The position numbers were made by a program, and so were the translations under genes. From NCBI GenBank assembly GCA_003118195.1, contig BEXV01000868.1, positions 1-64,000 on the forward strand: 64,000 bases of DNA, in the 5' to 3' direction. The DNA comes from Hemicentrotus pulcherrimus. Taxonomy: Eukaryota > Echinodermata > Echinoidea > Camarodonta > Strongylocentrotidae. The notes beneath the pieces are model-generated. The model saw only the letters and a program-made list of their open reading frames with translations. It did no database searches and was not told where the DNA came from. Shown here one piece after another: positions 1,888 through 25,296 of the stretch; position 1 is the stretch's first letter; the number at the start of each line of letters is the position of its first letter.

Positions 1888-10584
<8,697 letters not shown>

Positions 10585-16413: not shown

Positions 16414-17858
16414 TTCATATACAGGGGCGTAGACAACGGGGGGGATTAGGGGGATGCATCCCCCCGCCTCACAAGGTGGGGGGGATGGCATGTACAATCA
16501 TCCCCCCCAGGTTTTGGGGAATGATATTTGCTTACTTAATAAGTCATAATGATGATAATAATAGTAATAATGATAACAATTATAATATTAAAAATGATAA
16601 TAATTATGATGATGATAATAATAATCCTCATCATTATTGNNNNNNNNNNNNNNNNNNNNNNNNNNNNNNNNNNNNNNNNNNNNNNNNNNNNNNNNNNNNN
16701 NNNNNNNNNNNNNNNNNNNNNNNNNNNNNNNNNNNNNNNNNNNNNNNNNNNNNNNNNNNNNNNNNNNNNNNNNNNNNNNNNNNNNNNNNNNNNNNNNNNN
16801 NNNNNNNNNNNNNNNNNNNNNNNNNNNNNNNNNNNNNNNNNNNNNNNNNNNNNNNNNNNNNNNNNNNNNNNNNNNNNNNNNNNNNNNNNNNNNNNNNNNN
16901 NNNNNNNNNNNNNNNNNNNNNNNNNNNNNNNNNNNNNNNNNNNNNNNNNNNNNNNNNNNNNNNNNNNNNNNNNNNNNNNNNNNNNNNNNNNNNNNNNNNN
17001 NNNNNNNNNNNNNNNNNNNNNNNNNNNNNNNNNNNNNNNNNNNNNNNNNNNNNNNNNNNNNNNNNNNNNNNNNNNNNNNNNNNNNNNNNNNNNNNNNNNN
17101 NNNNNNNNNNNNNNNNNNNNNNNNNNNNNNNNNNNNNNNNNNNNNNNNNNNNNNNNNNNNNNNNNNNNNNNNNNNNNNNNNNNNNNNNNNNNNNNNNNNN
17201 NNNNNNNNNNNNNNNNNNNNNNNNNNNNNNNNNNNNNNNNNNNNNNNNNNNNNNNNNNNNNNNNNNNNNNNNNNNNNNNNNNNNNNNNNNNNNNNNNNNN
17301 NNNNNNNNNNNNNNNNNNNNNNNNNNNNNNNNNNNNNNNNNNNNNNNNNNNNNNNNNNNNNNNNNNNNNNNNNNNNNNNNNNNNNNNNNNNNNNNNNNNN
17401 NNNNNNNNNNNNNNNNNNNNNNNNNNNNNNNNNNNNNNNNNNNNNNNNNNNNNNNNNNNNNNNNNNNNNNNNNNNNNNNNNNNNNNNNNNNNNNNNNNNN
17501 NNNNNNNNNNNNNNNNNNNNNNNNNNNNNNNNNNNNNNNNNNNNNNNNNNNNNNNNNNNNNNNNNNNNNNNNNNNNNNNNNNNNNNNNNNNNNNNNNNNN
17601 NNNNNNNNTGCGTGAGTATAATGTGTGCGTGCACGCTTGTGTGTGTTATTTTACCTCATTAAGTATGCATCAGATTGCACGATTTCAAGTTCAAAATTGC
17701 AAAAGCTCCCTACCGTGGGAGGGGGGACACCCCCCTCCCACACCCTCCCCCGCTCGGTCGCTTCCCCCCTCTCGCTCGGGCGCTTCGCGCCCTCACTAGC
17801 GTTGGCAGCCCAGTCATCCCCCCAGGTGTACGAACCTGTCTACGCCACTGTTCATATA
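16414..17858. mobile_element. hAT-type DNA transposon copy, non-autonomous or unresolved
   Basis: The element 16422-17850 begins CAGGGGCGTAGAC and ends GTCTACGCCACTG, near-perfect terminal inverted repeats. It is bounded on both sides by the identical 8-bp direct repeat TTCATATA (16414-16421 and 17851-17858). Eight-base target duplications with CAG-type ends are the hallmark of the hAT superfamily. G-rich and C-rich subterminal stretches are also present. The interior is hidden by the assembly gap 16640-17608, so a transposase cannot be excluded. Confidence 0.72.
16640..17608. other. Assembly gap (969 N)
   Basis: This is an unsequenced stretch inside the hAT-type element. Open frames that appear to run through it are artefacts. 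Confidence 1.
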
Positions 17859-18960: not shown

Positions 18961-20290
18961 GATTTTACCGACATTTTGTGTAGTATCATGTTCCCTATGA
19001 AAAGCAGTGATGAAGAATATGAAGGAGTTAGACAAAAAATGGCGGGGTTTTCTAACCCAAAGGTTACTGCATTTATATTACTAAGAGTCATTCATATTAA
19101 TGTTAAAGAGAAATAAGATTACCATACGCGCTATGACAAGAGTTTTTTTTTTAAACCACCCCTCATATCCTCAGAACAATATATTTCTCATTGCCTCTCT
19201 TACATGTGTATGTTTAAAGCGGCCGAGAGTAATTTTTCTCAAATTTCCAGCATTTGTCAAGTAAAAAATCATATTAAAGTTCTTATTCATTCTTTTATCG
19301 TGAGATTGTGCTTAAGACCACATCAGGATTGGTAAATTCACCTGATACTAAAATCACGTTAAACTAAAGGAAAATTTAGAGCGCAGATTACCTTCTGATT
19401 ATTTTGAACAAAAGTATAAACTACTCGTCGGTTTTGAATGTTCAAATGTTCGGAGAATACGGGTCATATTGTGCTCAAAATGTTCGCAAAAGGTCTTGGT
19501 GACGTTACAACTTTAAAGGAGAAGTCCCCCCTGATATAAAATTGGTTTTGATAGAAGCAGAAAATGAGAGGAAGAGGTAATCTGACCGAGCGAACCCATC
19601 ATACACTGTTGAAGAAAAACAAAGTTTAAAGTCAAAAGAAAAATTAGTATTTCTCTTCAAAGATTGAGATAAGTATGTTTTCCATGGACGGGGGGGGGGG
19701 GGGGGNTGGGTGTCAAGCTTTTAACTACTCAACTGTCCCTTTAACATAATCTATAGCCCAATAATACTACAATTATTTTAATTAGCTGAATATTTTCAAA
19801 AGAATATTGAGTATTTTCCAACTATATAGGGAAAAATCAAAGAACCAATACAGCACTCAGACACTAATGATATTAAGCCCCTTACGTCATATTATTCTTG
19901 GAATTGGTGAGATGTTACAGGTTTACAAAGGACTGCCACGATGTGGTCAGGTCACGATTTCTTCTAATAATATTAATGCCATCCACGAAAATCAGTCAGG
20001 CGTTACTATGCCACTACATCAGACGGTTTTTAATCTCTGTCGAAATTAGTGTCGTGATCTGACTTTTGATATTGCTCACCGTGCTATATTTATTTCTCAT
20101 AAATGATTAAAATTTGTGATGTTTGTTCCATGAGCATGTCTATTTTCAGGTTTCCGGAGGGTGATTTTTGTTTAGAAGGAATAATAACCTATTAAGCAAT
20201 TCAATAAAGGGATTAAGACAACAATATCAGACCACGTATCTTTTTTAAGGGGTGGGTGTTATCAATAATTATATTAGGTGTAACTTTATA

Positions 20291-20298
20291 TATATAAG
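20291..20298 (+). promoter_or_regulatory. Candidate TATA box of the cytokine-like gene
   Basis: TATATAAG lies 112 bases before the ATG at 20403. A start site 25-30 bases downstream (about 20320) would exclude the in-frame ATG at 20310 and make ATG 20403 the first start codon in the mRNA. TATA promoters are common in inducible genes. No mapped transcription start is available, so this is an inference. Confidence 0.4.
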
Positions 20299-20402
20299 TT
20301 ATACCAATTATGAGGTCTTTATATTGTTGCAGAAGAGAGTACGTTGTTCACAGTTTGCAAGGGCAGCTATCAGTAAAGACAGCTTTAATAGTAGTTTTCA
20401 AA

Positions 20403-20484
20403 ATGGAGTTCATACATCTACATCTCATCAAGTGGAAAAGTGCGGCTTTTTCCTGTAAAAGGATTAAAGTATGGAGTATAGTGG
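20403..20484 (+). CDS. Cytokine-like gene, coding exon 1 (signal peptide start)
   Basis: This exon encodes 27 residues plus one base, ending ...VWSIV G. The donor GTGAGT is at 20485. The n-region is rich in Lys, Arg and His, and the hydrophobic core is split by the intron. In class-I cytokine genes intron 1 likewise interrupts the signal peptide in phase 1. A TTGTTGCAG acceptor at 20323-20331 could instead mark a 5' untranslated exon boundary. Confidence 0.55.
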
Positions 20485-23400
20485 GTGAGTTCAATTTTAT
20501 CTTAATTTCCCAACTTAAAATTTGCTTCGTTTGTTTAGCACATGTCGTTATCTTTTAGTGATATCATGAAAATGATGATGAAAATAGTAATAATAGTATT
20601 TAGTATTATTATTGTAACATTATCTATCCAAACGCTTAGAGCATTGTTTTATTACGCCGGTCACTGGATTCAACTGCTATTCTGTACGTCATAGAGCACA
20701 TTATCCACTCCTTGGTGAGCATTCCAGCTAATAGTCTTTTCAAGGTTCATGTAGAACCTCTATAAGGAAACAAAAAAAAAGTTACTGTGATTTCTGGTTA
20801 AGTTCATAAAAACTAGTCTGTCTGATATAGTCTAAATATCTTTTTTAAAAACTAATAGAATACTATACTTGAAAAGTGCAATATGTGTCCATTGCTGTAA
20901 TAAATATATTTGCCGCCATCCCAAATCACGCATCAACTGATCAATGCATGATTATGAATACACGGGCGCACAGAACAAATCGCAAAGACTTTCGAAAACT
21001 CAACTCACGGGCATTTTCAATACCCTATCCCGTAGAAATCCAGTTCATTTTCTATTTAATTTGAACACCGATTCTTTGATCTGCAATTATCATCTCGGAG
21101 TCAAATATCTTTCTTGGTCCATGCAGGATTGCTTATATGTAGCCTAGATTGGATGGTTTACCCCGTGACGTCAGCAGTGACGTCAGTGCCGTGTACCAGC
21201 GTCGTATCTTATGAGATCTCAAAGAAAGTAGATCTAGCCCGTAACTCCACACTCAATCTCCTTTCAAATGTAAGTATATTTTGCAATTTTTTGTAGTGGT
21301 TTTTCAAAACACGATCTCAAAGACTTCAAAAATCAATCTCAGGCAAATTTTAGTAGGCTTACAAGTGCGTCTCTTATTAAAATGTGCAAACATGATAATG
21401 CCATAGATGCATTACGTAATCCAAATATGATGTTCATAAGCAGGACAATGAGGTATTGAAGTTGTCTTTTATCGCTTGAGAGCCTCAGTTGCAAACGTGC
21501 TCGAACAGAAAAACACAACAGTTTGAAAGTTGGGATGTTTTTGTTTCGATAAAACTACTAGTCGTTATTTGAAACACAACGGTTAATATACTATTTGAAA
21601 TACAAAGCAAAGATAATATTGAGAAACCCTCAATATAAGGGTTAACGGTTCGAATCCCAACACGGCACTAACGTCCTTTGGCACGACCTTAATGCACATT
21701 GACCACTCTCCACCCAGGTGTTAAATGGGTACCCGGTAGGATGTCCAAGTTTGTAACATGTCTGAAAAGCGCATAGAGAAACCGTCTATGATAAGCGCTG
21801 TATAAACCCAGAATATTATTATTATACAATGTCTGAAATAAGTATTATGAGACGAGGACATTTTTCAGATGGATGACATGGAAATTATTAGAGGTGATCA
21901 TATCCTCTGCTATTATTTACGAATGTAAAATCTGATGTTTTATTTGATGTTCTAGAATAAAATGATTTGAATTGAATTGAATTGCACACTAGACGCTTAA
22001 AATAATGAAGATCCACTATGATTATGCACATGATGATAAGATCATTGAAACGGAATGCGTTTTCTCCACTTTTTGCCCTTTGACTTTGGGTCACCTGCTC
22101 CCCGTGTCTACGCCATTGTTGGTTAAATAACCAGGACTTATGTTCATCGCTGACGTCACCACTAAACCCTTTAACCCAGTGTGGAATATCACCTGTACCA
22201 TCTCAGCTTAGCACCAATGTTCATAACGTCACCTGGAGCGATGTAAGTCAATCAATCCGCTTGACGATCTAGAAATAGTACTAAAGATAAATGTAAAAAT
22301 TCCTTGATTACTCAGTTTTTAAACGGAAAGCCTGCTCTAAAAGAAAGTAGAAACACCGGATAAGCTAATGTGTGGGTGCGTGTGTGTGGGTGTGCGTGTG
22401 TGTTTTATTTAGTATATTTCTTGAGTTGAGAATGTTAGCAGACATCCACTGAGTGAGTAGTGTGTGTGTGTGTGTGTGTGTGTGCGTGTGCGTGTGTGTG
22501 TGTGTGTGTATGGGTGGGTGTGTTTGTGTGACGGAGGGGGGCAGGGAGGAGCAGGGCTTTGTTCCTTGTACCAAAATATCCTCCAGATTTGTTAAAGTTT
22601 TTTTTTGTATATAGAGTGAATTAATTTAGTTTGATTATGTTTATGTATAAGCAATTAAAATTGAAAACGTTTATTCATTTTATTCAATTTTATGTTGTTT
22701 GTGTTTGTATTACATTTGGAGGAATAAAACAAAATTACAACAACAACAAAAATTTGTTGGTGGGAGTGTGTGTGTTGGTGCACAATATTATATTTGTGTT
22801 TTTGTACTTTAAGCTTACTTTCAATTTTAGCTCAGTTATATATACTGCTTATGAGTTGTTGTTTAATTATGTTTTTGTTCATGTATAAGCAATCAATATT
22901 GAAAACATTTTTATTCTATTGTATGTTTGTATTACACTATTGGAGGAATTTTAAAAAAAAAGTGTTTTTATATCAAAATGATTATACATACATACATAAA
23001 TATTGATATTTATATAGCGCCTTTACACAAACAGGCTCAAAGCACCGGTGACTGTCTAACATCTCAACTGTTTTGTAGTTTTATTCATTTGTTTATTTAT
23101 TTATTTATCTATTTTTATATCTATCCATTTATTACAGATAACCTCATTTAATGTATTCGAGAGATATATCAACACTACAGTTTTCTTCGAGAGGAGCATT
23201 GCACATCTGATTACAGAAGAAACTGAAAGTCTTATCAATCAAAAACTAGTATCTTTGAAGAGGATCCTGAACCAACTGAATGAACATTTAATGCAGACTA
23301 GTCATAACTGTTGGGTAAGTACTTGCTTCTCTTCATCCAGGGTATTAAATGGGCGCCCGGTAGAACGCGTAGGTCCTTGTGATGCGTTCAGCAACGGGAG

Positions 23401-24235
23401 AGCTTTCAAAATAGCGCCTAGTTGGAATGCTCCCCAGGGAGTGGAGAATATGCCTACATTATGTGTGGGCGAACCGGATTCCTATTACCGGGTAATAACA
23501 CATTTGTTAGCGCTGATAGACATCGTAGATGATTTGTATTAAACAATAGATAAAATCAAAATGCTATCTAATTTCATAAGTGCACTTTTGGAAAAGTCAA
23601 TGTGATACCCTCGATTGTCAGAGGAAAGTCTCATTTTGAAGCACTTTCCTCAACGGAGATGTAACAAGAAGCTCCTTTTTGGGTAATCCTTTTTTACTAC
23701 CCTCACAGTGTACTTCTATTCTTGTCTCTTATTATGCCTAAGCAATGACAATGTTTATGGAATGAAGTTCTTGGTATTGCTTTGATTAGAGGAGTGTGAA
23801 TATACCAATGCACATTGCAGATGTCAGAGGTGCCCTTTTTAAAAGCAGCCTCATGGACAACCACTGAGTCAGACCTGTGTAATGATGATGATGATGATGA
23901 TGTTCCACGGCACTTGTAACGTGCCATTTATCTGTTTCAAACATGTAAAGGTTTTGCTTGTTTGCAAAATGTGTTGCCACTTGCAAAGAATTCATACATG
24001 TTTATTAATCTTTTCGTCATATAATGTCATCTAACGTATTGCCACATGTATTTCTTTCCCGTCACTACCACGGTTACAGTGTCGATATAACACCAATCAG
24101 TCTCAAGTGACCTTTGATTCCAACGCGTCATCGACAAGGACTTGTTCCGTCGTAGAAAGTCTTCGGGAGTTTCTCGACACTGCCCTCGACGGATTTTCAA
24201 ACAACGCTGTCAGTAATCTACGTCTGTCGTGTTGA
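20403..24235 (+). CDS. Secreted four-helix-bundle cytokine-like protein, 5 exons
   Basis: Exons 20403-20484, 21127-21269, 22180-22242 (an acceptor at 22135 or 22207 is also in frame), 23138-23314 and 24080-24235 join with GT-AG sites in phases 1, 0, 0, 0 into one open frame of about 206 residues. ATG 20403 has A at -3 and G at +4. Residues 1-44 form a basic n-region and a hydrophobic core, a likely signal peptide cut near Ala44. The mature part has six cysteines (50, 76, 154, 156, 177, 206) and five N-glycosylation sequons (67, 91, 108, 161, 170). Four amphipathic stretches fit helix A (exon 2), B and C (exon 4) and D (exon 5). Vertebrate class-I cytokines and hormones (EPO, IL-6, growth hormone) share five coding exons and 1-0-0-0 phases. 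I infer an extracellular ligand for a gp130/Domeless-type receptor. Primary sequence matches no family clearly; another secreted helical protein is possible. Confidence 0.65.
20644..20740 (+). repeat. Dispersed repeat fragment (related to 28700-28840)
   Basis: TTACGCCGGTCACTGGATTC and TCCACTCCTTGGTGAGCATTCC match, with changes, the copy at 28750-28830 in the same orientation. It lies in intron 1 of the cytokine-like gene. Confidence 0.5.
21127..21269 (+). CDS. Cytokine-like gene, exon 2 (signal end, helix A)
   Basis: The acceptor follows a pyrimidine-rich TCTTTCTTGGTCCATGCAG and the donor is GTAAGT. The exon is 143 bases; human EPO exon 2 is remembered as 146. It encodes the end of the hydrophobic signal (LLICSLDWMVYPVTSA), one mature cysteine, and an amphipathic stretch SYEISKKVDLARNSTLNLLS with an NST sequon, the likely helix A. 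Two TGACGTCA palindromes lie inside the exon at about 21166-21184. Confidence 0.65.
21634..21830 (+). mobile_element. tRNA-derived SINE copy in intron 2 of the cytokine-like gene
   Basis: It contains a canonical B box GGTTCGAATCC (21647-21657), then the shared motifs CTTTGGCACGAC, CACCCAGGTGTTAAATGGG and GCGCATAGAGAAACC, ending in an ATT-rich tail at about 21815. The order is the same as in the copies at 7322 and 60644. Confidence 0.6.
22180..22242 (+). CDS. Cytokine-like gene, exon 3 (A-B loop)
   Basis: Three acceptors (AG at 22133-22134, 22178-22179 and 22205-22206) all keep phase 0 and lead to the same GTAAGT donor at 22243. I prefer 22180 because it gives an even number of mature cysteines. 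The 22135 version (108 bases) adds a Pro/Leu/Ser-rich stretch and would also suit a long crossover loop. The exon contains the NVT sequon. The exact start is uncertain and could be alternatively spliced. Confidence 0.45.
22371..22530. repeat. (GT)n/(TG)n microsatellite
   Basis: Long GT arrays with interruptions (GGGTGT, GTGCGT) lie in intron 3 of the cytokine-like gene. A poly-His/Thr open frame on the other strand is a by-product. Confidence 0.9.
23138..23314 (+). CDS. Cytokine-like gene, exon 4 (helices B and C)
   Basis: A clean exon: acceptor ATTTATTACAG, donor GTAAGT, 177 bases, phase 0 at both ends (human EPO exon 4 is remembered as 180). It encodes two amphipathic helices, around FNVFERYINTTVFFERSIAH and KLVSLKRILNQLNEHL, then ends in Cys-Trp. 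The heptad-like spacing of Leu, Ile and Phe is what a helical bundle needs. Confidence 0.72.
23325..23500 (-). repeat. Dispersed repeat fragment, inverted relative to 28700
   Basis: The stretch TGCTCCCCAGGGAGTGGAGA and the following 50 bases are the reverse complement of 28757-28830, and a weaker forward relative lies at 20650-20735. It directly follows the donor of exon 4 of the cytokine-like gene. The GGTATTAAATGGGCGCCCGG motif links it to the SINE family. Confidence 0.55.
24080..24235 (+). CDS. Cytokine-like gene, exon 5 (C-D loop, helix D, stop)
   Basis: The acceptor is CACGGTTACAG and the stop is TGA at 24233-24235. The exon has 156 bases including the stop, the same as the remembered human EPO last exon. 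It starts with Cys, has two sequons (NQS, NAS), then an amphipathic helix CSVVESLREFLDTALDGFS and a terminal Cys. This helix would be helix D, the receptor-binding helix in IL-6/LIF-type cytokines. Confidence 0.7.
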   Translation, partial: CRYNTNQSQVTFDSNASSTRTCSVVESLREFLDTALDGFSNNAVSNLRLSC

Positions 24236-24477
24236 CCCGACCTTGGTTTCGAAGTAGGATTCATACCATGTTCGAACTTGAGATTTGAATGGTGAAAATT
24301 ATGTTAAAAGTTGATGTTGGAGCAAACCTTATAATTATGGATGACGATTTTGATATGGAATTCCCTTGGCTTGAAATCAACCCTCTCGATATACCATTTA
24401 TTATTTCTTTAGTCAATATTATTTTTAATTGAAAAGAATCATTATTGTAGATGAACATTGATACCACCAAATGTCTC

Positions 24478-24483
24478 AATAAA
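24478..24483 (+). promoter_or_regulatory. Candidate polyadenylation signal of the cytokine-like gene
   Basis: AATAAA lies 243 bases after the stop codon and is followed by a T-rich stretch. It would give a short 3' UTR. An ATTTA pentamer at about 24387 lies within that UTR; such motifs often mark unstable cytokine mRNAs, but one copy is weak evidence. Confidence 0.5.
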
Positions 24484-25296
24484 AGTTGATCGTTTATCTT
24501 AAAACTTTAATGGATAATTCGTCATATTGATGTGTCCTAAATAATTTTCAACAACTGGAAGCAGAATAAGGGTCTGAAACATTTACTCATCTAACTAGGC
24601 CTATTATGACCGTCTTATCATGTTCGCTGGTCGAAAATGGGGACGGTGTATTAAAAAACACGATCACTACTATTTATTAAAAATCAGCTGAAGGGCAATT
24701 TAAATTACCTATTTTACATATAATGGGAATCATGTTCAGATTACCTAATACGTCATTGTTATGTTGACGCCTGTCCACAAGGCTCTTGAAACTGACCTAG
24801 ATTTTTTTTCCCAGATAGTAGTTGCTATCGTGTTCAAGTCAAAAAGGGACCGTGCCTGCTTTTCAGATAGATTTCATTTGTATGAAAGATTGTAAGATTG
24901 TAAGTTTTTATTGATTCTATCGACCCCCTCTCGGGTTATGAGAGTACAAGAATATTTACAACATAGTATCAATATAACAATAGTATAACAATGATGAACA
25001 TGTGATAACATAACATTTGATAAACATAATGAGATAATATGAACAATAATAAACATGTGATAATATGAATGAAGGTAATCTAAAATGGAATACAGGGAAA
25101 CTCAAAAGAACCAGTGTCACTATAATCATGTCAATGAATTGGAATTTTCTAAGGAATTCAAGGGGGAATAAAAGAATGTGGGATTACATTTCGCTCTAAT
25201 AATAAACATGATCAGGCCGCTAAATCGTGTCAAATTCTCCCATACAATCAGAATATCCTTGGGGTCATAATTTCAAAGTTCGAATTCATCGTTTTG

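Follow-up and report, generated by a model that had tools for sequence, protein, structure and literature searches.

A possible class-I helical cytokine gene with an EPO-like five-exon architecture in the sea urchin Hemicentrotus pulcherrimus

The genes encoding the class-I helical cytokines EPO, GH, PRL and IL-6 have five coding exons and intron phases 1-0-0-0. The coding exons of EPO measure 13, 146, 87, 180 and 156 nucleotides (nt), and a disulfide bond joins C7 and C161 of the protein. Cytokines typically diverge fast. Here we describe a gene on the plus strand at positions 20403-24235 of a 64,000-nt stretch of DNA from the sea urchin Hemicentrotus pulcherrimus (contig BEXV01000868.1, positions 1 to 64,000, assembly GCA_003118195.1; the whole stretch is called the window below), whose exon number, intron phases and several exon lengths are close to those of EPO. 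The Drosophila Unpaired proteins (Upd1-3), the ligands of Domeless, are invertebrate counterparts in the role that we propose for its product, that of binding a gp130-like receptor. Drosophila 'helical factor' was likewise proposed, by bioinformatics, as a putative helical cytokine (Malagoli 2007, as cited in PMC2248247). The present gene was recognized by similar means. The 'helical factor' gene was reportedly annotated later as glucan-binding-protein-like, which calls for caution with such inference.

A survey from 2026 that covered 18 metazoan phyla or subphyla found IL-6 in vertebrates only, and it placed IL6R-like genes from Strongylocentrotus purpuratus and from Saccoglossus beside vertebrate IL6R (PMC13203501). 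On that account an invertebrate ligand gap exists for such a gene. The survey required a BLAST E<=1e-5 and an identity of at least 30%, and would therefore miss a gene of this kind. Jak-STAT signalling is among the enriched pathways in a sea cucumber coelomocyte study (PMC7161275). In the literature searched, no echinoderm class-I helical cytokine is described.

Gene model and tests against chance

Joining five plus-strand exons with AG acceptors yields one frame of 206 codons and a stop, with intron phases 1-0-0-0. An earlier note on this DNA had claimed this structure, and the joined sequence reproduces its exon coordinates and lengths. Coding exon 1 (20403-20484, 82 nt) carries the start codon, a basic n-region and the start of a hydrophobic stretch; its donor is GTGAGT, in phase 1. 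The rest of the hydrophobic stretch, C50, the proposed and weak helix A and the sequon at N67 are encoded by exon 2 (21127-21269, 143 nt), the proposed A-B loop with C76 and the sequon at N91 by exon 3 (22180-22242, 63 nt), and the proposed helices B and C with the sequon at N108 and C154 by exon 4 (23138-23314, 177 nt). Each of these three exons ends in a GTAAGT donor in phase 0. Exon 5 (24080-24235, 156 nt including the stop codon) encodes the C-D loop with sequons N161 and N170 and cysteines C156 and C177, then the proposed helix D and the terminal C206. The six mature cysteines and five N-glycosylation sequons of the earlier note are thus all present, as are the alternative sizes it gave for exon 3, which arise when the acceptor lies at 22135, for 108 nt, or at 22207, for 36 nt. 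Counted after residue 45, there are six cysteines with the 63-nt form, seven with the 108-nt form and five with the 36-nt form.

Around the chosen ATG at 20403, position -3 is A and position +4 is G. A TATA-box-like run was detected on the plus strand at 20285-20298, in the sequence and by motif scan, some 105-118 bases before the ATG. With the run near 20290, transcription would start at or after 20310; TATA-like matches number 109 on both strands of the window, and the run is weak as sole evidence. The motif scan also placed an AATAAA polyadenylation signal on the plus strand at 24478-24483.

The hexamer GTRAGT occurs five times on the plus strand of 20001-24500, and four of these are the donors of the gene. 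When 20201-24500 was shuffled with dinucleotides preserved, none of 1000 shuffles held a five-exon chain of at least 190 amino acids with GTRAGT donors. In shuffles of everything but the four donors, a chain of any length appeared in 3 of 3000 and one of at least 150 amino acids in none. Tiles of 4.3 kb were also scanned on both strands (51 of 56 scored, five being left out for N); no such chain was found in 50 of the 51, and the exception (start 19351, plus strand) overlaps the gene. The true region itself contains 40 chains that satisfy the same mechanical rules. The four donors are common to all 15 of these that were listed, which vary in the start (20310 or 20403), in the acceptors of exons 2 and 3 and in the last exon (23849, 24080 or 24156). 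Because so many chains fit, these elements of the model were set by judgement.

A test of codon usage, with 527 codons from the other genes of the window as training set, gave a weak bias, a point against the gene: 221 of 2000 random stop-free sets scored equally high. In exons 1, 2, 4 and 5 the stated frame scored highest of the three, and exon 3 scored better in its other frames. This weak bias, the lack of a homologue and the 40 mechanical chains would suit a chance chain of open frames that is no gene at all. The failure of the 1000 and 3000 shuffles to reproduce the chain argues against this, as do the four GTRAGT donors, the even number of cysteines, the context of the ATG and the AATAAA signal, and we regard a chance origin as highly improbable. 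The locus is almost certainly a real, so far unannotated gene in an echinoderm.

Architecture and predicted protein compared with helical cytokines

The gene shares with EPO its five coding exons and the phases 1-0-0-0. Exons 2, 4 and 5 measure 143, 177 and 156 nt here and 146, 180 and 156 in EPO, whereas exons 1 and 3 differ (82 and 63 nt against 13 and 87). Each protein has one cysteine close to the start of its mature form and another close to its end, here C50 and the very C-terminal C206; both carry a sequon 17 residues past the first cysteine (N24 in EPO, N67 here), and their mature sizes are similar. EPO has no counterpart of C154, C156 and C177, however, and helix A is weak in the sea urchin protein. 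With IL-6, GH and prolactin the gene has in common the phases and the layout of helices over exons, but neither IL-6 nor GH showed sequence similarity to it in pairwise alignment. We estimate roughly, from phase frequencies, that 1-0-0-0 would occur by coincidence in about 3-5% of such genes; the exon-length match would arise by coincidence in about 1%, a similarly rough figure that allows for the choice among cytokines and exons. The match to class-I cytokine architecture is therefore suggestive and is not proof. It is on gene architecture that the class-I link rests, because the Pfam, PDB, database, pairwise and profile comparisons described below were null.

At the N terminus, a basic n-region of 22 residues is followed by a hydrophobic stretch at residues 23-41 (19-residue mean hydropathy 1.65), and a plausible cleavage site, VTSA-V, was located by eye near residue 44. 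The signal peptide claimed earlier is plausible from this hydrophobic stretch, but given the n-region ahead of it the stretch could instead be a type II anchor, which would count against a secreted cytokine. In such a membrane protein residues 1-22 would be cytosolic and residues 23-41 an uncleaved signal anchor bearing a helical ectodomain. The long basic n-region and the hydropathy of the stretch fit this arrangement, whereas D35 and P40 within the stretch and the plausible cleavage site downstream do not, and we consider it unlikely. The product is probably a helical secreted protein.

Structure models were made from isolated exons 4 and 5. Exon 4 alone was modelled with high confidence as helix over residues 2-58 (mean predicted local distance difference test score, pLDDT, of 92). 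AlphaFold tends to model isolated helical peptides as straight, so this model reflects helix propensity and is not proof against a turn. Along exon 4 the hydrophobic moment drops to 0.13 at residue 118, and the direction of the hydrophobic face goes from about 90 to about 180 degrees, a turn of about 90 degrees around residues 116-122. This swing looks like the pattern expected of two amphipathic helices with a turn between them. In human EPO exon 4 the moment falls to 0.14 and the face turns by about 100-130 degrees, in the sense opposite to that seen here. Exon 5 alone gave one low-confidence helix, at exon residues 24-39, past the loop.

The earlier note had described four amphipathic segments, and this claim is half supported, because only C (p=0.02) and D (p=0.03) were amphipathic beyond within-segment shuffles, the comparison used for all p values of segments and loops given here. 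As to its assignment of helices to exons, a break between B and C was seen in exon 4 and a low-confidence helix in exon 5.

Relatives, receptors and alternative readings

Several results weigh against a class-I cytokine. In the structural analysis, exon 4 was modelled as a single unbroken helix, and the mean pLDDT of the exon 5 model was low, at 54. Neither segment A (p=0.55) nor segment B (p=0.30) was amphipathic beyond shuffles, and of the two loop controls the proposed A-B loop scored p=0.06 and the other p=0.47. The protein database searches point the same way. The database combined nr, UniRef and eukprot sources, and candidates had to share exact five-residue words with the query. The whole protein gave 197 candidates and residues 96-206 gave 24, none of either set at E<=10, in a database whose echinoderm content was not seen. 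These empty results are informative because the same database returns vertebrate EPOs: a control query with EPO gave 128 matches, and all 120 listed carry the EPO/TPO Pfam domain. Nothing in Pfam exceeded its cut-off, EPO/TPO (PF00758), IL-6, LIF/OSM and GH/PRL included, and the scan gave only RyR (E 0.036) and DUF29 (E 0.048), both below cut-offs.

Comparison with individual cytokines was no more productive. Local alignment against EPO, TPO, IL-6, GH, G-CSF, IL-7, IL-2 and IL-4 gave no score convincingly above shuffles; the best were those of IL-7 and IL-2, which 17 and 24 of 500 shuffles equalled, and for EPO the number was 162 of 500. Compared with EPO exon by exon, as high a score was reached by 716 of 2000 shuffles for exon 2, 172 for exon 4 and 578 for exon 5. 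An hhalign comparison with an alignment of 14 EPOs returned a probability of 0.2% (P 0.31). It pairs N24, C33 and W51 of EPO with N67, C76 and W94, ungapped, and by our own count C7 and C50 fall in the same register; given the P value, this register is a lead only. As cytokines typically diverge fast, the lack of detectable relatives would be unsurprising.

Further searches gave no relative among PDB sequences or among viral contigs, where seven pattern matches were obtained, and an Rfam scan returned nothing. When the assembly itself (414 Mb in 4189 contigs) was searched with the protein for paralogues, only the gene's own five exons came up.

The receptor side, too, gave nothing in favour of a class-I system. 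IL6Ra-bind found no match in the same genome, but it was equally silent in its control genomes, so that absence is not established. Seven weak matches, all below the cut-off, came from Lep_receptor_Ig; six of them became loci, and the sequence of about 3.2 kb read at each contained no WSXWS motif. As cytokine receptors the Lep_receptor_Ig matches were set aside, since by eye five of the six loci hold immunoglobulin (Ig)-like frames; the sixth, L011, is without a long frame. Three of the loci, L008, L009 and L010 (contigs C2713, C3620 and C1677), show by eye long frames that resemble receptors made of Ig domains, a transmembrane stretch and a cytoplasmic tail. The three are similar in layout, and the two parts of L008 lie in different frames.

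With the exon and phase plan, the face break in exon 4, the low-confidence helix of exon 5 and the cysteines at the two mature ends on one side and the null results for EPO similarity, Pfam and WSXWS on the other, the class-I four-helix cytokine of the earlier note is plausible, and we hold it to be a real possibility that stops short of being probable. A nearly comparable weight has to be given to a fast-evolving or lineage-restricted secreted helical glycoprotein outside class I, such as an immune effector or a gamete or coelomic-fluid protein. The pattern 1-0-0-0 would then be a coincidence, a phase-1 intron in the signal sequence followed by phase-0 introns, of the frequency estimated above. 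Such a protein would fit a solid gene model that has no sequence link to any cytokine compared, no relative in the protein database and only segments C and D amphipathic beyond shuffles; against it stand the close match of three exon lengths and of the exon-to-helix layout to EPO, and the break of the hydrophobic face in exon 4. A helical cytokine of the CSF-1/SCF/FLT3L/IL-34 type, which binds receptor tyrosine kinases, would be alike in overall fold class, size, the presence of several disulfides and glycosylation, and the lengths of CSF-1 exons 3 and 4 (63 and 171) are also near. The CSF-1 phases are 0-0-0-0-1, however, with a membrane anchor downstream, against 1-0-0-0 and a stop in exon 5 here, and no Pfam match was obtained; we think this type quite unlikely.

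If the gene does encode a class-I cytokine, the product of the single-copy locus would be a four-helix-bundle protein of the long-chain kind, N-glycosylated and held by disulfide bonds. The protein would be made with a signal peptide and presumably secreted, with exon 2 supplying helix A, exon 3 the A-B loop, exon 4 helices B and C and exon 5 helix D, in a topology predicted from this layout. A putative C50-C206 bond would staple the bundle, in analogy to C7-C161 of EPO. The ligand may then bridge gp130/EPOR-like receptors and so activate JAK and STAT signalling.

Surroundings of the gene and wider meaning

In the region upstream of the gene, a STAT-type palindrome, TTCYNRGAA, lies at 19895-19903, about 500 bases upstream of the ATG; with six strand-wise matches in the window it is weak and was not used as evidence. 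NF-kB, AP-1, cAMP response element (CRE) and IRF motifs were looked for in 19300-20402 and none was found. GT-rich simple repeats occupy 22369-22530 in intron 3. Two near-identical stretches of 21 bases lie at 21721-21741 in intron 2 and 23345-23365 in intron 4; the pattern written from these two copies, TTAAATGGGYRCCCGGTAGRA, had a mean of 0.00 matches in 100 shuffles, and the stretches are perhaps pieces of a repeat like a short interspersed element (SINE).

Elsewhere in the window, a myosin VII-like gene with matches to myosin head, IQ, MyTH4 and FERM occupies 37231-59414 on the minus strand and offers a landmark for the orthologous locus in other echinoderms. An ankyrin-repeat open frame is found at 4265-4594, and an assembly gap (a run of N) at about 16640-17610. 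On the mitochondrial contig of the same assembly, cox1 reads in the echinoderm code; after it come tRNA-Arg, identified with ARAGORN, and frames recognized by eye as nad4L and cox2. Such an order and code are typical of echinoderms, the protein looks echinoid, and the echinoderm host is thereby supported.

We tentatively put the gene forward as the first echinoderm class-I helical cytokine gene, one that keeps the five-exon 1-0-0-0 architecture of EPO, GH and IL-6, and as a candidate ligand for the IL6R-like receptors reported in sea urchins. Should it prove not to be a cytokine, it would still show that fast-evolving genes overlooked by homology searches can be picked out by their architecture. 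If the class-I assignment is true, the ligand side of the class-I system would predate the split between chordates and ambulacrarians, the helical cytokine system would date to the deuterostome ancestor, and IL6R-like receptors such as those of the surveyed sea urchin and hemichordate would have a candidate ligand.

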